NCBI RefSeq assembly: GCF_001625215.2
Contig: NC_030381.2
Location: 49,375,214-49,439,213 of the forward strand
From: Daucus carota subsp. sativus
Lineage: Eukaryota > Streptophyta > Magnoliopsida > Apiales > Apiaceae
Direction: 5' to 3'
DNA: 64,000 bases
Shown here: piece by piece, positions 3,306 through 57,213 of the stretch
How the letters are laid out: the number at the start of each line of letters is the position of its first letter
Position numbering within the stretch: the first letter of the stretch is position 1
Translations under genes and position numbers: made by a program
Notes under the pieces: model-generated
Told to the model about the DNA's origin: nothing
The model's database searches: none
Seen by the model: the letters and a program-made list of their open reading frames with translations, nothing else

Positions 3306-3365
3306 AGGCAGCACCTTAACAATATTTTCCCAACTAGATACCCAACAATTCCTTTCTAATCCAGC

Positions 3366-4316
3366 ATGGCTTCCCCTACCACCTATTTTTCTATCCTCAT
3401 CTTCCTAACCCTCTTTTCCTCCCTTCATGTTCATGCAAGAGAAAGCAAGTTCTTTAGCAAATTCACCAATGACAACAATGCCAAACAGCTTCTCCCACCA
3501 AAAGAGCAAGAACAGCCCTTAAACAAACCAGAACAAGAGCCAAATTTCATCCCACAGAACCAACAAAACTCCGGGGGCTATGGCCTCTACGGACACGAAT
3601 CAGGCCAACTCCCTCCCACCACCACCACCACCGAAAACCTCCCCTACACAACAGAAACAGAAAACTCATACAACAAAGAATCCATCCCTAGTTCCAACAA
3701 TGGCCAGTACTACAACAATGATGCTCAAGTCAATACCGAATCCTACTCAAACAATGACCAGTACTACAACAACAATGCTCAGGTCAATACCGAATCCTAC
3801 TCAAACAATGGCCAGTACTACAACAATGATGCTTATGTCACTAAGCCGCAAGGCATGAGTGACACAAGATTCATGGACGAGGCCTACAAGCCCTACACGA
3901 CTCCCATCAACAACAACGACAACAACAACAACAATTATTATAATAACGGCAATATGTACAACAATAGGCAGCATGGGATTGGTGAGGCCAAGCTCGGAGT
4001 GACTAATGACAACAATTACAACAATGAGAAGCAGGGCATGAGTGACACAAGGTTCTTGGAGAACGGAAGGTATTATTATGACCTTAATAGCGAAAATAAT
4101 TACAATCTTAATGCTAATAACGTCAATGAAAATTCAAGAGGGTTCAACTCAAGAAATGAGTATTACAACAATAGAGGCAATTATGGAAACTCATTTAGGC
4201 AGCAGTATGGGAACAATGAGAACTCCAACTCTTATGAAGCTAACAATTCCATGGAAGGGTACAATGGGAATCAAGAGGAGTTCCAGGAGAGCCAAGAGGA
4301 GCAATTCAATCCTTGA
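3366..4316 (+). CDS. Protein E6-like, secreted Asn/Tyr-rich protein
   Basis: This is a single-exon gene of 316 aa. Residues 1-24 form a signal peptide (hydrophobic SILIFLTLFSSL, then HVHA before RESK), so the product should enter the secretory pathway and probably the cell wall. The mature part is dominated by Asn, Tyr, Gln and Ser. It holds about three tandem copies of a 17-residue unit around NNGQYYNNDAQVNTES near residues 109-155, and two GMSDTRF motifs (about residues 161 and 226), the hallmark of plant E6-like proteins first known from cotton fibre. The Asn-rich spacer between the motifs is built from AAC/AAT repeats and is probably length-polymorphic. The tail is Glu/Gln-rich. The molecular function of E6 proteins is not established. 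The start is the first ATG after the TATA box and gives the signal peptide. Confidence 0.85.
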   Translation: MASPTTYFSILIFLTLFSSLHVHARESKFFSKFTNDNNAKQLLPPKEQEQPLNKPEQEPNFIPQNQQNSGGYGLYGHESGQLPPTTTTTENLPYTTETENSYNKESIPSSNNGQYYNNDAQVNTESYSNNDQYYNNNAQVNTESYSNNGQYYNNDAYVTKPQGMSDTRFMDEAYKPYTTPINNNDNNNNNYYNNGNMYNNRQHGIGEAKLGVTNDNNYNNEKQGMSDTRFLENGRYYYDLNSENNYNLNANNVNENSRGFNSRNEYYNNRGNYGNSFRQQYGNNENSNSYEANNSMEGYNGNQEEFQESQEEQFNP

Positions 4317-18986: not shown

Positions 18987-21295
18987 AAAAGGCTCAATCA
19001 CCATCAAACAGGAGACCAACTTTCAACTGTGAAAGTATGAAACCATTAAATGGTTTTTAATAGTGTTTGGCTGTTAAAAATTGTTAGAAATCGAAGGAAA
19101 GTTGATGTAGAGTGCTGATGTGTTAATATGTTCTAACTTATAAAGTAGATAGCATGACAGAGAAAGTTGCAAGAGATTACTAAATCACCATCAAACAGGA
19201 GACCAACTTTCAACTGTGAAAGTATGAAACCATTAAATGGTTTTTAATAGGTTTTGGCTGTTAAAAAATGTTAGAAATCGAAGGAAAGCTGATGTAGAGT
19301 GCTGATGTGTTAATATGTTCTAAAGGAGATAGCATGACAGAGAAAGTTGCAAGAGATTACTAAATCACCATCAAACAGGAGACCAACTTTCAACTGTGAA
19401 AGTATGAAACCATTAAATGGTTTTTAATAGGTTTTGGCTGTTAAAAAATGTTAGAAATCGAAGGAAAGTTGATGTAGAGTGCTGATGTGTTAATATGTTC
19501 TAAAGTAGTAGCATGACAGAGAAAGTTGCAAGAGATTAGGGGGAATAGGATCATGCTCTGTTGTATCAACAGAAGAAGATTGAAAACAGACCACCCTTGT
19601 TTCTTGAGTTACGGAGAAGGTAGAGGAAAAGATTATGGTGCGACTCCAGGAGTTAGTTGGGAGCAAGATCTGCATCCGTCCTCATAGTTTTTGTATCTTT
19701 CGTGTATGTTATCTTTCATAACAATCACATAAGTACCAAAATTAGGAACATCGGCTGATTTAATTTGTGCTCTGTAGTACATCGAATAGGATGGTGTAGG
19801 CATGTCATTTGTGTGGTTCCTGTTGCTTTTGACTGGTAGATGGGGTTGATATTTTTGTGGAAGGATGACCTTTTTTTATTAACAGATTACTTCCAGGCTG
19901 TTCCAGCAAGTAAATGGAAACGAAATTTTTCTTGCATTTAATTAATTAACCGACTACAGGTTTTATCTGATTGAGTTGTCAATATACAAGCTTTTGAGTG
20001 CATACCTGCAAACTGTTCCCCTGTTCAATGCTGGTTTATCCCTCAACCCCCCAAAAAATGTCTGACGTTTAGAAATTGACAAGCAAAAAGTTCAGACTTT
20101 TAATGGAAGAATTAAAGGCTAATGAAGGTGTAAAATGGAGTGGATTGTTATTTACAGGCAATACTTTGAGCTGGCTCCAATACTGAATATAGTCATACGA
20201 GCAAGTGCTTGTTTTATTTTCGTAAGATAAGATTTGCAAGTTCAATAAAGCTTAAAACTTCCTAGTTCTTATGACAACGTATAGAATATATTGGAATTCT
20301 CATCGTAAACAATTGATTCAACACACAGCTAACTAATCTCCGTGTAGGTTTTCGCGTTCAATAGAGTTCATGAGTCCATGTCTTGTTAATTATCTCTATG
20401 ATAAGTCATTAGATGATATGATCTAGTCAATTTATATTCTAGAGGTGTTAAAGAAGTATCCTTTCAAGGAAAAACGCCCTTTTTTTTATATCAAAATTGG
20501 GGATATACCAAATGGTTACAATATATAAATGATTTGTGTTATTCACCCAAGCTCTTAACTTTTACTTGTATAGTTAGAGCATGCCATACAGTTTTATGTG
20601 TTTATGTCCACATTTGTTTTTATTGTTTTCTTTATCGATTTTTTCAGGGTTGTGAGCACTAATTTTGTCGCACGTCAACCTGAAGAGTCTTCAGTCTATG
20701 TAATTACATAATCTATTTACTTTGTGCTCTTAATTTTTCTTATCATGTATATGTGAAACCGTAATAGACCGCTGTAGACACTGATTGCTCAAGTCGAAGA
20801 GGGTACTGGTTAAGTTGTAAGGTTCATTAAGTGGGTGTCCTACCATACGACCTGTCTGTCATGTGATCGTCCAATACACTCAGAAATTTCTTTCAGCTTA
20901 AACCACTTAATTGATAAATGATAAACCATGATTGTTATGGATAGATACTACTGTCACATTTACATTTCAATAAACATATATCTTTGTTAAAATCTTGACC
21001 AATACACTCCTCTTTTCCTTTCTTTTTTGGTTTAGGGCTATAATACTGAACATGGCTGAAATTGACTTGGAGAGTGTTCATTATATTCCATGTTTTGTAC
21101 CGTCACTTTCGGAAGTTTATAGACCCAGTGGCTGATGATCCAAGAAGAAAAGAATTTCTTTTTTTATTATTATCATTTTGCAATATTTGTTCTCTGGCCT
21201 GCAGCTTGGAACTATATAATCTACCAACAGCATTTACTTTGTCATAAATTTATACTGTTGGTTTTTTTGTTTCCTTGTGAATTGTAGATGCATGA
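18191..21295 (+). CDS. NFD6-like organellar protein, tandem copy 2
   Basis: This is a paralogue of the gene at 13426 in direct tandem. Exon 1 (18191-18324, 134 nt) has the same length as in copy 1. Exon 2 (18410-18531) is one codon longer and encodes IPVEMSCAMDSMLPFHTATA, then LTSMLSVTPRIYNWTIE. As in copy 1, two terminal exons fit the phase-1 junction. An exon from 20648 adds GL before TGA (20653-20655); an exon from 21288 adds DA before TGA (21293-21295). Both isoforms are 87 aa. Both copies share untranslated context upstream (GCAAAACCCC) and at the 3' exons (GAGTTGTGGGGATGTGCTGCAT), so the duplication covers the whole transcription unit. Differences are mostly conservative, and both copies are open, so both may work. 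The intron carries the poly-G tract and 180-bp repeats listed separately. Confidence 0.72.
18952..18982 (+). repeat. 31-G homopolymer in NFD6-like copy 2 intron
   Basis: There are thirty-one consecutive G residues after CATACC and before TTAAAAAA. Runs this long are very rare in plant DNA and can form G-quadruplexes. They are also where assemblies and polymerases fail, so the true length is uncertain. Confidence 0.9.
18997..19538. repeat. Three tandem copies of a ~180-bp repeat
   Basis: Units begin ATCACCATCAAACAGG at 18997, 19184 and 19364 (periods 187 and 180). The third ends near 19538. Each holds ATGAAACCATTAAATGGTTT (itself partly palindromic) and ends GAAAGTTGCAAGAGATTA. They are nearly identical, hence recent. 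The array starts 14 bp after the poly-G tract. Confidence 0.9.
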
Positions 21296-28354: not shown

Positions 28355-31300
28355 ATGGATTCTGAATATTGGACCTCTCGGCTAGCGGCGGCCAAGCGTC
28401 ATTTCATTCATCACCACCATCAAAACAACACCTCCCGTCTCTCTTCTCATATGGGTCTCAATTTTCTTGACTTTTAATTCATTTTTTCATTCTTGATATA
28501 TTTATTTATGTTTTTATCACATGGGTATTTTTTAATTTTGTGTTTTGTTGATCAGATCGTTTAAACATGGATGATTTTGTTGATGTTGAAGAAGATGGTC
28601 GTCCTGATTTCCCTTGCCCTTATTGTTATGAGGAATATGATTTGGCTACTCTTTGTTTGCATCTTAAAGATGAGCACCCTTCTGAGTCTAGAGTCACTGT
28701 GAGCCTTTTCTTTCTTGTCTTGATTATTGTCAATTTTTTAAGATATGTTGTGTTGTAATCTTGTTTTTATGTTGTAAAGTTTTGATCTTTGAGCTTAATT
28801 GCGTTATTATGTGATCTTATTGGCAGTTGTGTTTTAATTATACTTGATTTCAAGGGAATGGTGGAGAATGGAGATATTGTTTTATGTTGTAAAAGTTTTG
28901 ATCTTTAAGCTTAATTTATGATTGTTATGTGATTTCATTGGCTCTTGTCATTTGATCACAGATTAAAAAGAAAATTTGCAAGTTTGTTTGGTGTGTTTCT
29001 TTTCTTTGGATATTTGCTAGTGCCAACATGATTTAACAAATGTTAATAAAATTTATTTGAGGTGTTTAGAGAGGCGGAGCCAAGAATTCTTGTCAGGAAC
29101 CTGAGTTCATGATTCTAGGTACAATAAATTGCTATTTCCATGAAGGTGAACTCATAACTTAGATACTCACAAACTCATATTCGAGTGAGACTTGACTCCT
29201 CAACTTTTTACAAACAGAGATATTAACGACTGGCTACCAAAGCCGGGAAAGGAAATATAAAAGTCAATTGTGCTGTGTTGTGTCAGCCTGTGGATGATTG
29301 CTAGTTAGGGGAGCTTTATACGATAAGGTTGTGTATGGCTTCTTCTTTTTTTGCTATCAAAGTCTTTGGTAATCGTAAAGTGATTGTGAAGGGGAGATGT
29401 TATGAGCACTGGTTCATTTAGGTTCAATATGGCAGGAACAGGGGATATTGCATTGGCCTCAATTAGGACTCAGGGTGTGTGAATGGTTAATTAGCGTTTT
29501 GAGTATATAGATCGGAAACTACAGGTTTAGTTACAATTGCTGCATATTTATATACATACATACACACACATCTTGATTAAAAATTGCAATTAGCATAAGA
29601 AGAGTGGTATTGCTGCATATTTGTTTACATACGCACATGATGGCTCCCAAAAATAAACCCGCCATTACAGCTTGCTGCCCTACGGAACGGTAGCCTTAAT
29701 CCTCACGGTCCAGAACGGAAGATAACCACAGAGCCGAAGGAGGCCTACGGAAGCAAGCATGTTTCCAGCTTGACACCTGTCAAGCCAGGCGTTGTGTTAC
29801 ACCCACCGTTAGTCATTCCTTAATTTCTGGGATACATGACACCTAAAAACCTACTTTCAGATCATCTGGTCTACCTACTAATAGGTCTAAAAACATGTCA
29901 TTCCACCCCGATAATTAGGAAGGAGTCGGCACCTCTGATAATTGACTATAAATAGTTAAGAAGCCATGGAGATAAAAGGTAATGTACAATGTTATTAAGA
30001 CACTAATCTCAAAAAACCTTCTGATGATGGCCTTTGAAACCCAGGCGTGATCCCTACGGCACCCAAATAGGACATTATGGCCATCAACACACATCTCGAT
30101 TAAACATGCAATTAGCATAACAAGAGTGGTAGACTTGTACGGCTCTGCCAAGAATCTCAAAAGTTATGGCAAGTGAATAAGTGTAGATTTGTATTTTCAC
30201 ATGAACAGCACTGAGGAACATCATTGTGTTTCATCATTGTTGGGACTCTCACTCGTAGATATATATACTGTGTTTCTGTTAGGTGGAGAACCTTTGCGGC
30301 TTGGCCCCTCTTTTCCTCAAGAAACTCACATGCTATTTCATCTTTTCTCTCCATCCCTTTCTGCAATCCCAAAACTCACAAATTTTTTGCAGCCTACCAA
30401 ATAGAACCTTTTCATGTTTTATGGTGTGCGCTGCTCGTTTCCGTGTTTGATTGATATGCACTTCAGTAAAACAGGAGGTATAAATATTTTTAGAAAATAT
30501 TGCTTCACCGTGCTAGTACAAAAAATAAACTAAGCTTTTTAAGTTGTTATATATACTGGAAAACATTTATAATCTATCATGTGGTTGGTTCACTGGAAAA
30601 CTGATTGGAGGGTCCTGATTATCTCTAGTTCCTTTTACTATATGTTTTTTCTTGATTTACTAGGTGCAAATTGCAATGGATGAATCATTTTAAAGTGTCA
30701 TTTACATTGTTATTAAATTGCTCCAAGATTGTGAAGTTCCTACTAGCAATGTTATTTGAATCTTACAAAGAATTCACAATTTCTTTGCAGGTTTGTCCCG
30801 TATGTTCTGTCAAGGTTGCAAGGGACATGTTAACTCATATAAGGATGCAACACGGGCACTTGCTTAAGATATCCTTTTGAATGGAAATGGTTAAATTTTA
30901 AAGTTTGTAGCAAATTTGTTTGATAGCTCATTATCTTTGCCTTATGCAAGTGTTCTCCTTAATTGACCAATACTTGCATAGACGTCGTAGATTACGTAGA
31001 GTTGCAGTTCCTGACAGTCAGACACTGTCTCTTTTGGGAAGAGATCTCCGCGAGGCCCATTTGCAGGTGCTTCTCGGAGGTGGTGCCTATCGATCAAGTA
31101 CTGCAACCCCATCTCCTGCAGCCACTGATCCGCTACTTTCATCGTTGATTATGAACTACCCTACTTCTGAAGCTGAAGAGATCACAAAAGTAGTAACATC
31201 ATGTGCTGAGGATTCATCTACGAATACGGCATCACAACATCTATGGAAATCAAGGTATATTACATTTGTTCATGGTGTACCTCCCTTTCTTATAGTTTAG

Positions 31301-32051
31301 TATTGTTTCGCCTTTGTTACTTTCTGCTTGTAGTTTGCTCACGTGCTAATAAAATGGTGTGCTGATCAGAAAGTACAACTGATAAAAAAATCTTAATATA
31401 CCCTCATGAGTTATATTTAAAAGTATAGCCAGAACTTAATTACACACAGACATGTTCAAACTCCTTATAGATGCTATGTTGTACAGACAGAATGTAGATA
31501 TAGAGCTATATTTCCAGAAACGGAAGTCCTGCAATCAATATATACTGTATTAGGTTGTACAAACAATTCTATGTGAAAAATTTAAATACCCTTATGCAGT
31601 CAGAACAAGTACTGAAAAGAAAATTACTATCTTCATATTATATACGGAGTATTAACTTTTAATTACTACTATTATTATAGAAAAAGTTCTTTAAATTCCC
31701 AGTGCCTCGAATATATGTTTATACCACTATAGGGTCTCAGTATTTCATGGTATCTGGTTGCACGTGGGTAGACATGATTATCATTTGGCTTTATGCGCAT
31801 TTGTCAGGGCTCGGGGAATTGGGCATAGTATTTTAGAAATTATGTCATTTATAGCTTCTGAGTCAATTGTGTGCCCTGTATATTGCCATTTATATAGTTT
31901 TTAGTATGTTTAAATATTTCTGACCCTATTTCCCCCTTGCAGTTTTGATCCATCATTGAGTATTGAAGAGCGACAAAAACGAATTACACAGGATGCTAGA
32001 AAAGCAATGTTTATGCAAGATCTGGTTGTCTCAACTCTGTTAGTTGAGTAA
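28355..32051 (+). CDS. Di19: DEHYDRATION-INDUCED 19 (Di19) zinc-finger protein
   Basis: Five exons encode 236 aa: 28355-28454, 28556-28698, 30791-30868, 30974-31254 and 31943-32051. Residues 52-107 form the zf-Di19 domain with two Cys2/His2-type units: C54-x2-C57...H69-x4-H74 and C83-x2-C86...H97-x4-H102. A basic stretch HRRRRLRR (109-116) is a likely nuclear signal. The C-terminal part holds the conserved SLLGRDLREAHLQVLLGGG, RSS, FDPSLSIEERQKRI and a Leu/Val-rich end resembling an export signal. Di19 proteins are nuclear, respond to drought and salt, and bind DNA in Arabidopsis; they can be phosphorylated by CDPKs. Intron 3 only works as an AT-AC intron, which gives HGHLLK-LHRRRRLRR without a frame break. 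Intron 2 (about 2.1 kb) contains a solo LTR. Confidence 0.93.
29541..30135. repeat. ~70-bp tandem duplication split by an LTR
   Basis: The unit ATTGCTGCATATTT...AGCATAAGAAGAGTGGT occurs at 29541-29610. A second copy starts at 29611, is interrupted by the solo LTR (29638-30086), and resumes to about 30135 with AGCATAACAAGAGTGGT. The duplication therefore predates the LTR insertion. Confidence 0.7.
29638..30086 (+). mobile_element. Solo LTR in Di19 intron 2
   Basis: This 449-bp segment starts TGATGGC and ends GCCATCA, the short inverted TG...CA ends of an LTR. The flanks are GCACA and ACACA (four of five equal), consistent with a 5-bp TSD. A TATA-like GACTATAAATAG lies at about 29944. No internal retrotransposon sequence or second LTR is present, so it is a recombination-derived solo LTR. 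Its orientation is inferred from the TATA box. Confidence 0.72.
30869..30973 (+). other. U12-type AT-AC intron (Di19 intron 3)
   Basis: The donor is ATATCCTTTT, a perfect match to the U12 AT-AC donor consensus ATATCCTT. The branch site is CTCCTTAAT at 30955-30963 (consensus TTCCTTRAY). The intron ends AC, 11 nt after the presumed branch A. It is 105 nt long and phase 0. No GT-AG alternative in this stretch keeps the Di19 frame and the conserved K-L-x-RRRRLRR junction. Confidence 0.9.
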
Positions 32052-42276: not shown

Positions 42277-42378
42277 CACGCACTTCACACACATTTCTCC
42301 ACCACCTCTCCTCCATTCTCTCCCCTAAAATATCGCACCCTCAAAGATCAAATTATTCAATCAAATTTTTAACTAAAA

Positions 42379-43017
42379 ATGGCTCCCAAGGAAAAGACGG
42401 CGCCACCATGCAAGAAACAGACCAACGTCGACGAAGTACATTACAGAGGTGTCCGAAAGCGCCCCTGGGGAAGATACGCCGCGGAGATTAGAGACCCGGG
42501 GAAGAAAACTAGGGTTTGGCTGGGGACGTTTGATACGGCGGAAGCGGCGGCGCGGGCTTACGACGCTGCCGCTCGCGGGTTTCGCAACAACAAGGCGAAG
42601 ACGAATTTTCCGACCCCCGATGAAATAATGAACGTGAGCGATTTCAAGAAGATCGATACGAGTAAGAAGGTTGGGAATGAGTATGATGTGAAGCAGAGCC
42701 AGAGTCCGACGAGTACGCTGGAGTCGTCGAGTCAGGAGCGGTTTTTGTCGTTGGATCTTAACGTTGCCGCGGACGGGTTCGGGTCGGGTTATGGGTCCGG
42801 TTTCGGGTCACCGATTTTGTACCCGTTTCAAATCCAGCCGGTTCAGATTTTTGGGTTTGTACCGGCGGCGGGTTACCGGAGCTCCGACGGGTCGGGTTTT
42901 AGGGTTAGCAGTGGGTCCCAGAGTGATTCGGACTCGTCTTCGGTGGTTGATGTGAATATGAATCGGAGAGGGATTATGATTGATCTGAACGAGCTTCCGC
43001 TGCCTGAATATTTTTGA
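42379..43017 (+). CDS. ERF transcriptional repressor (group VIII, EAR motif)
   Basis: This is an intronless gene of 212 aa. The AP2/ERF domain spans about residues 21-78 ([20 protein letters not shown] through AKTNFP). It has the ERF-type Ala and Asp at the positions that separate ERF from DREB, and the DNA-contact [10 protein letters not shown] and RVWLGTF motifs. It has two EAR-type sites: SLDLN near residue 125 and the C-terminal IDLNELPLP. These recruit TOPLESS-type co-repressors in plants, so the protein should repress GCC-box genes in the nucleus. The layout (short N-terminus, one AP2 domain, C-terminal DLN-x-x-P) is that of group VIII/B-1 class II ERFs (ERF3/4/8/9-like). The region between the EAR sites is Gly/Ser-rich with [10 protein letters not shown]. 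The exact orthologue cannot be fixed by eye. Confidence 0.93.
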
Positions 43018-54613: not shown

Positions 54614-55060
54614 TCATGCAAGCCAAAGAGGAGGTGGCTCATTCAAATCTATCCCCAACCCACGTCGCACTATCCCCAGATACGCCGCCGTGTTCGAACT
54701 CTCCGGCACCGGAGCTCCCCCACTCCCCACCACCCCACGGTGGCTCCTACTCCCCCCTCCCATACTCTCTCCCAGAAAATCACGCATCATTATCCTCCCG
54801 GAGCTCCCTCCCCACCGCTGATCCGACGGCGCGTTCAGGTCCAGACCCAACCCATTTTCCGGCGCCGGAAAATTGGTCTTCGCTTTCGGCCCTCTCAGCG
54901 ACCTGGCTGCGCCGTCATACGCTAACGCAGCCTCCTCTGGCGTGTCGAACGTGCCGAGCCACACCCGTGTTTTCTTCCACGGGTCGCGTATCTCGGCGGC
55001 GTAACGGCCCCATGGCCGCTTTCTCACTCCTCTATAGTGACCTTCTTTAGTGGACGCCAT
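54614..55060 (-). CDS. Small ERF transcriptional repressor (group VIII, EAR motif)
   Basis: This is an intronless minus-strand gene of 148 aa. Six residues precede the AP2/ERF domain (about 7-65: [44 protein letters not shown]). Then come an internal GLGLDLNAP and a C-terminal [13 protein letters not shown]. Both are EAR-type DLN sites, so it is a predicted repressor of GCC-box genes like the ERF at 42.4 kb, but shorter (ERF9-12-like layout). The frame stays open upstream to an ATG at 55141. That ATG overlaps the TATA box and cannot be in the mRNA, so MASTKEG at 55060 is the start. The AP2 domains of the two ERFs are close, but their C-terminal regions have little in common beyond the EAR sites. 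They are family members, not a recent tandem duplication. Confidence 0.92.
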
Positions 55061-55140
55061 GGGGGTTTTAGAGAGAGAGTAAGGTGGGCCCACTGAGTTA
55101 ACGTTTGATCGTCGGCTGAGTATTAGATGGAACAAGTGCA

Positions 55141-55148
55141 TTATATAG
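55141..55148 (-). promoter_or_regulatory. Probable TATA box of the minus-strand ERF
   Basis: On the minus strand CTATATAA precedes TGCACTTG. It lies about 80 bp upstream of the ATG at 55060. This spacing decides the start codon. Confidence 0.65.
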
Positions 55149-57213
55149 AAGGGGCTTGAAGATGTTATTGTCTGCAGCTGAGGAGTTTGGGGAGGTAGTG
55201 AGATGTGAGCCGTTGGATTTCATCGGGGGATTTTTTGTGTATTTATGGGAGTGTGTTGTGTGTATTATTGGGCCGTGTTTATAAACGTGTGGTATTGTTT
55301 GTTTCGTTTTTTTCTAAAGTTGTGAAATTGATAGGTCGACATTTGAAACGTTTCAGTTTCACACTTGGTTCCGTTTTCTCATTTCGAAGAAAATAAATAT
55401 TAAGATTATGACACCAACAACAATTACATGTGTTTCCTCTTATTTTTACTGATAATAATCTGAATCAAATCTTTATTTGATTTATTAGATCGAATACGAC
55501 TTTTCGAATCTTAAATAGGATCTAATCAACAATCATCCATATTTTACTCTTTTTCTTACCATTAATACTACATAACTCAAATTCTTTTCTAGATTTTCTT
55601 CCAAGACCGAACCACAATAGTAAGGGAGGTATCTATATCTTTGAGAAAAAAATTGAAAAATTATTTTCGATACATATCATTTTCTTCTTTCATATGACGT
55701 TTTAGCTGACACACGTTATCTTTAAATACTTTCACCTAATAGCTAAAATTATTAATTTATTTTTACTAAAAGTATGTTATTAAAATTTTAATTTCACAAA
55801 AAATTAATTATATATGATTAATTTTACCATGTAGTCAAAAATTCTGATCTACACCTCAAAAAACAGGGGAGAACTGAAATCGGGTGTTATTGTCATGTAA
55901 AGAACCGTTTGCAAATTGTTTGGCTAGGCAAATAAAAAAGCAGCATAGACATGTATAGGGTCATGTGAGTTGCGCAGAGATGGTGGTAGTTGCGGGGTGG
56001 TGCGAAAAGTATAAAGAGGGTGCAGGGCTTACGTATGAGCCTGCGGTACTTGTGACACAACAAGTCTCCCCCATTGCTAGCTTCTAGCCTATATATACAG
56101 ATGCACTCTCTTAGAGTCATTAATAAACTGCTCTGCAGGCATCAAAGTACAAAGTATGCTGCAGCATCAAGGTCTGGATTAATATTTCAGATTTGATTAT
56201 TAGTGAAACTTCAGAGTATGGATGGTCGTGTAAGCAATCAGGGGAGTGGTGTCTCAAGGTGATTGGCAGGTAGTGATGGGAATCCTGTAAAGATAGTATT
56301 AAAACCCTTGCAGCTCAAACATTAGAAAAAGGTCTCTACAAGACTAAACTCCAAGCACACATATGCATGCACTTTTGCAGTCTGCAGGTTTGGTAGTGTG
56401 TGTGGACTCTTTCAGAGTTTCTTCAGACGTTCCCACGTGCTTACAAGTGTGTATAACCATAGATGGAGATAGTGTTCTGGTTTGCGGAGACAGCCATTTT
56501 CATTGTGTATCTTATTTTTGAGTGAGACATATTATTAAACACTGGACACCGACTTTCGAGTGAGATATATCGGACACTGAACCCATTTCAATATTTTTTT
56601 CAAAAATAAATTACGGAACTATATTTTACAGTAGTATTAACGTGCATATCACGTCCCCCTACCACAATGTATACCATGGAGGGTAAGGGGAGTATTGATT
56701 TAAGCAAAGAACTTTTTATCCTATAGACTATATGGAGTACAAAAGGTTATAGCAAGGTGGAGAAGCTATGGAACATCTGGCATGTAGCAAAGTAGATTAT
56801 AGATCAGAGGTACCTATAATTTATTTTACAAGAAGAGATATGATATAGGGGAATGCAACTATGCAAGTCTTGCAGTTAAGTTAGACAGCCCATGCAAAGA
56901 TTATTAAAGAATAAAGTGAATAGCTCAAGTACAGATTCGGGGTACATGTGTAACTGCACATTTTAGTATTGATATCTATCCAAATGTTGCTAAGTTTTGG
57001 ATAAAACTAAACAGGAGGGGATGAGGATAATGTACAAGATTCTGAAATACTACATGATTGTGATATGAGACTAATAACAAGATGCTTTTGACAAAGGAAA
57101 CCCCAAGATGGAATAAGAGGAAATTATCAACCTACATCAGCAAGCGGGATACAAGGATCGGTAGCCTTTCGCGTTCCACAGGTGCAAGCATCTGGAGTTT
57201 GTTGGAGCAGTAC
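55149..57213. other. Intergenic region between ERF and RLP4-like gene
   Basis: No gene was recognised. A degenerate MITE-like inverted pair may lie at about 55680-55870. The part next to 57213 probably includes the 3' UTR of the RLP4-like gene. Confidence 0.4.

Follow-up and report, generated by a model that had tools for sequence, protein, structure and literature searches.

The window, a 64-kb stretch of carrot DNA, contains at positions 28355-32051 of the forward strand a complete Di19 gene of five exons, whose 711-nt coding sequence is translated without internal stop into a protein of 236 amino acids according to the exon model (Table 1). Both domains of the family were detected in the spliced protein with Pfam: zf-Di19 (PF05605) scored 77.4 bits (cut-off 27.5) over residues 51-103, spanning profile positions 2-54 of 54, and Di19_C (PF14571), beginning at residue 125, scored 97 bits (cut-off 29) over profile positions 1-102 of 102. 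The PDB chain nearest to the predicted protein is 9qt9_C (E 2.9e-32), the solved DI19 of Arabidopsis, followed by KCMF1, with a best E of 7.2e-05. Searches with the spliced protein in collections made up of organisms other than plants returned 9 pattern stretches among viral contigs and 68 among genome contigs, none of them a relative. The exon count is that of the commonest Di19 structure, four introns and five exons, which is reported for 31 of 36 Di19 genes in a set drawn from seven species (PMC8954995). The locus is read as an ordinary plant nuclear Di19 gene, in which positions 30869-30973 form the third of four introns.

Table 1. Exons of the carrot Di19 gene and elements of its third intron (window coordinates)
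Feature	Positions	Strand	Remarks and basis
Exon 1	28355..28454	+	Starts with ATG; ends in phase 1 at weak donor G/GTCTCA
Exon 2, first zinc finger	28556..28698	+	Exon model
Exon 3 (78 nt), second zinc finger, end ...HGHLLK in phase 0	30791..30868	+	Exon model; alignment to 9qt9_C
Predicted intron 3, U12-type AT-AC, 105 nt, phase 0	30869..30973	+	Motifs, chance tests, best junction by homology
U12-type 5' splice site ATATCCTTTT	30869..30878	+	Exact ATATCCTT over 30869-30876
TGA, the first in-frame stop on retention of intron 3	30878..30880	+	374 nt before next exon junction
Putative branch site CTCCTTAAT	30955..30963	+	8 of 9 positions of TTCCTTRAY
Terminal AC	30972..30973	+	Intron end ...TCCTTAATTGACCAATAC
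Exon 4, LHRRRRLRR first, then basic stretch and start of Di19_C	30974..31254	+	Exon model, Pfam
Exon 5, which completes Di19_C and includes the stop codon	31943..32051	+	Exon model, Pfam

The boundary of exon 1 is placed by reading frame and a GT-AG pair only. Intron 2 carries a degenerate tandem duplication at 28758-28956, with a period of 116-118 nt and 77-79% similarity between copies. It also has a direct repeat of about 50 nt; the copies, at 29559-29609 and 30082-30131, are spaced about 522 nt apart, an arrangement that resembles repeats on either side of an insertion. Elsewhere in the window, two open frames, each encoding a single AP2 domain, are present at 42373-43017 (+, 53.0 bits) and 54614-55219 (-, 56 bits); the DLNE-type C-terminal motif found in both recalls EAR repressor ERFs. 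Another open frame, at 3360-4316 (+), encodes 318 amino acids rich in Asn and Tyr after a hydrophobic start, and has no Pfam match at E 0.001. A scan of the window with Rfam at the gathering threshold gave 0 matches, so that no minor snRNA gene is present at that threshold.

Signals and junction of intron 3

The boundaries of intron 3 read exon ...CACTTGCTTAAG, intron ATATCCTTTTGAATGG...TTCTCCTTAATTGACCAATAC, exon TTGCATAGACGTCGT.... Three features that mark an AT-AC intron of U12 type, the 5' splice site ATATCCTT, the branch site and the terminal AC, are found in 30869-30973. The first of these is the published consensus of U12-type 5' splice sites (PMC2831892, PMC2426677), and the consensus of the branch site is given either as TTCCTTRAY (PMC5932401) or as TCCTTAAC, located 10-15 nt before the junction (PMC2831892, PMC5932401, PMC2426677). 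Position 30962 is taken as the branch A, at a distance of 11 nt from the final base of the intron. An earlier note, made from the letters of the window, had proposed this donor, this branch site and an AC ending 11 nt further on, and its coordinates and motifs proved exact; the junction that it had drawn between LLK and LHRRRRLRR was recovered as K107 to L108 in phase 0 (HGHLLK/LHRRRRLRR), with the homology to 9qt9_C running ungapped across K and L. The lack of a polypyrimidine tract is a further mark of such introns; pyrimidines make up 0.65 of the last 20 nt of intron 3 versus 0.65, 0.60 and 0.75 in the GT-AG introns of the same gene, so that intron 3 does not stand out from them in this measure. 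The pattern ATATCCTTTN{40,70}CCTTRAY had no match, but the real gap of 79 nt falls outside its range of 40-70, so this result is no evidence against intron 3.

By itself the donor motif RTATCCTTT is unremarkable, with two occurrences in the window against 2.33 expected from 100 shuffles. The pairing of donor, branch site and intron end was compared with 120 strands simulated from the dinucleotide content of the window. Loose pairing is likewise unremarkable: if any AC or AG end located 9-21 nt after the A of a TCCTTRAY branch site is accepted, 0.86 pairings with RTATCCTTT are expected per strand within 5 kb, and 0.11 within 300 nt. The full set of signals (AT...AC termini no more than 300 nt apart and a branch A lying 10-13 nt ahead of the end) has an expectation of 0.008 per 64-kb strand, equal to one in the 120 simulated strands. 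Only the donor at 30869 pairs with any end in the window, the possible ends being 30973 (AC), 30981 (AG) and 30983 (AC); with the latter two the intron would measure 113 or 115 nt, respectively, and the frame would be shifted. For a second U12-like donor, GTATCCTTTC at 20456 (+), the 5 kb downstream contain no acceptor with a strict TCCTTRAY site; its occurrence is within chance expectation.

The stronger evidence on the junction comes from a test blind to splice dinucleotides, in which 26,460 donor/acceptor pairs around it were tried; all products with an open frame were compared by alignment with the DI19 part of 9qt9_C, the reference for all junction scores. The whole frame is left open by 4,776 of the pairs, among which 30869/30973 is the sole top scorer (297). 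The runners-up are five pairs at 295, which differ from it only in that the 105-nt deletion is displaced by 1, 2, 3, 5 or 6 nt, so the lead amounts to 2 points in 297. Neither Pfam model covers K107/L108: zf-Di19 stops at residue 103 and Di19_C begins at residue 125. On this alignment, homology locates the predicted intron to within some two codons, and its exact base is set by the U12 motifs. Recognisable termini occur in two of the 25 best pairs, namely the AT-AC pair 30869/30973 and an AT-AG pair, 30871-30981, which scores 288 and has a donor without the U12 motif. Among the 17 open AT-AC pairs, the second best (30869-30967, score 285) is also in frame and would insert Q-Y after K107; its AC precedes the acceptor by 6 nt and, at 5 nt from the branch A, is probably too near to the branch site.

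Splicing of intron 3 and its rival readings

These signals, together with the reading frame and the fit to the homologous protein, make it almost certain that the third of the four introns of this ordinary Di19 gene, 30869-30973, is U12-type with AT-AC termini. It is best regarded as a constitutive feature inherited within the gene family, and not as a demonstrated switch. The minor spliceosome would recognise ATATCCTTT (through U11, then U6atac) and CTCCTTAAT (through U12) and would join K107 to L108; this is the presumed route of splicing in carrot. The predicted intron falls where the two-finger zf-Di19 domain gives way to the basic stretch and the Di19_C tail, so its removal would be needed for any full-length protein. 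When intron 3 is retained in the transcript, the frame adds I-S-F and then stops, giving a product of 110 amino acids that keeps both fingers and has neither the basic stretch nor Di19_C. A stop at such a distance (374 nt) before an exon junction is the usual layout for nonsense-mediated decay (NMD), and the same is equally true of many retained introns; the retained RNA may be subject to decay.

U12 introns are already known in the Di19 family in Arabidopsis, and the carrot intron is not new as a kind. Arabidopsis Di19-2 has served as a U12-intron test gene in RT-PCR in three papers that form one line of work (PMC3422263, PMC4892727, PMC5853960). According to PMC4892727, the splicing of Di19-2 is defective in u11-48k plants, in which the tested U2-type introns are unaltered, and several U12 introns are unaffected in both 31k and 48k plants. 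Di19 is named among the genes with U11/U12-31K-dependent splicing in PMC3422263, whereas PMC5853960 describes the splicing of Di19-2 as 'not significantly altered' in 31k knockdown plants and uses it as a control there; these published mutant accounts do not fully agree on how sensitive the splicing of Di19-2 is. The carrot gene and Di19-2 belong to the same family and each has a U12-type intron, presumably the same one. The evidence for Di19-2 is experimental, its splicing having been followed by RT-PCR in minor-spliceosome mutants, whereas the carrot intron is predicted from sequence. A similar arrangement is described for plant CBP20 (PMC5932401), in which AT-AC U12 intron 4 parts the core domain from the tail and the other introns are U2-type; CBP20 is, however, an unrelated gene, and both the conservation of its intron and the effect of moving or replacing it were tested experimentally. 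The rarity that the earlier note ascribed to AT-AC introns agrees with published proportions: they account for 13-26% of U12-type introns in four plants (PMC7367187, Table 2), and for 4.8% by another count, from transcriptome work quoted in PMC5932401.

The further suggestion in the earlier note, that dependence on the minor spliceosome could gate Di19 expression under stress, is unsupported. It supposes that minor splicing is limiting and that stress shifts the retention of intron 3, and hence the amount of Di19 protein, which seems unlikely. The retention stop, only three codons into the intron and well ahead of the next exon junction, could lower output, and slow splicing of U12 introns has been argued, from their positions, to lower expression (PMC2426677). 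Indirect support comes from two sources, neither of which specifies the event: a review (PMC3591102) describes At-Di19-5 as adjusted through NMD-coupled splicing, and PMC4578763 counts Di19 among the cereal genes with conserved alternative splicing. The mutants of Arabidopsis divide, the defect of Di19-2 splicing in u11-48k plants (PMC4892727) favouring such a gate and the lack of significant alteration in 31k plants (PMC5853960) speaking against it. The fly orthologue of KCMF1, the animal counterpart of DI19 considered below, argues against it on two counts: in U6atac-mutant third-instar larvae four of nine probes for this gene are up and none is down (PMC2952598), and its U12 intron still undergoes partial splicing when the minor spliceosome is missing (PMC7644725). 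The literature searched, outside which most subscription papers lie, yielded no report that stress regulates the retention of this Di19 intron.

Removal of intron 3 by the major spliceosome as a GT-AG or GC-AG intron, with a coincidental resemblance to the U12 type, is highly improbable. An open frame did result from 68 of 615 GT-AG or GC-AG pairs tried, and the GC-AG pair 30862-30981 keeps both fingers and scores 271, but every pair of these kinds falls below the 297 of the AT-AC pair. Among the 4,776 open pairs there are 23 GT-AG pairs, the best of which (30815-30910) scores 234 and loses H97 and H102 of the second finger, and 19 GC-AG pairs, the best of which scores 271. The GC donor at 30862 (CTT/GCTTAAG) is far from the consensus of GC donors and counts against the major spliceosome, as does the improbability of the U12 signal set by chance (0.008 per strand). 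That no GT-AG pair yields the conserved protein (best 234 versus 297) bears out the claim of the earlier note that a U12-type AT-AC intron is required for the Di19 frame, and a gene finder restricted to GT-AG introns would be expected to mispredict this gene. It is just as improbable that the locus is a pseudogene whose broken frame the AT-AC reading mends by accident, for although the donor of intron 1 (GTCTCA) is weak and intron 2, at 2,092 nt, is long and contains duplications, the coding sequence has no internal stop, the Di19 domains are covered almost fully and the five-exon structure is the usual one.

The animal orthologue KCMF1 and the Di19 family

Beyond the U12-type AT-AC intron of carrot Di19 itself, an AT-AC intron of U12 type is found in the animal orthologue. 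DI19 is described as the plant orthologue of KCMF1, a cofactor of the UBR4 (BIG) ubiquitin ligase, on the basis of a C-terminal pin region and a reconstituted complex (PMC7618180, 2025). Table 2 of PMC2831892 includes fly KCMF1, whose third intron of six is U12-type with AT-AC termini, and the human intron is given as U12-type too, of the same subtype according to the text; AT-AC introns of the fly occupy nine rows in that table and number eight in the text. The presence of a rare AT-AC intron in each of two orthologous genes suggests one ancestral intron. That the AT-AC intron of plant Di19 is the same as AT-AC intron 3 of animal KCMF1, and so predates the plant-animal split with its type and termini kept in both lines, is an evenly balanced proposition. 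Fly and human KCMF1 resemble the carrot gene in having an AT-AC intron of U12 type, whereas KCMF1 has a ZZ domain and DI19 has none (PMC7618180); the KCMF1 introns are given in that table by number, type and termini.

In a reading anchored on the fingers, K107/L108 lies five residues after H102, the last zinc-finger histidine. If the intron is shared, intron 3 of KCMF1 is predicted to be in phase 0 and about five codons past the last zf-Di19 histidine, at approximately 141/142 of 9hxw_D; the HMMER alignment to 9hxw_D, which is weak and shifted in this region, would set the junction at 134/135. The link could easily have been overlooked, since the plant orthologue of KCMF1 has been called 'elusive' (PMC7618180) and the similarity is weak. 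The Di19/KCMF1 pair may already be among the 20 shared positions that are listed in an additional file of PMC2426677, the main text of which has no mention of KCMF1 or Di19.

As it stands, the carrot intron adds an ordinary member to a known class and was read correctly. GT-AG introns by themselves do not suffice to model this gene, and automatically annotated Di19 genes of plants therefore merit a check just past the second zinc finger. The Di19_C end resembles the C-terminal pin of KCMF1 described in the UBR4 (BIG) ligase (PMC7618180), and loss of minor splicing should leave Di19 with its fingers and without this tail. If the intron is common to Di19 and KCMF1, it would add a further U12 position to those shared by plants and animals, and would provide independent support for the orthology of DI19 and KCMF1.
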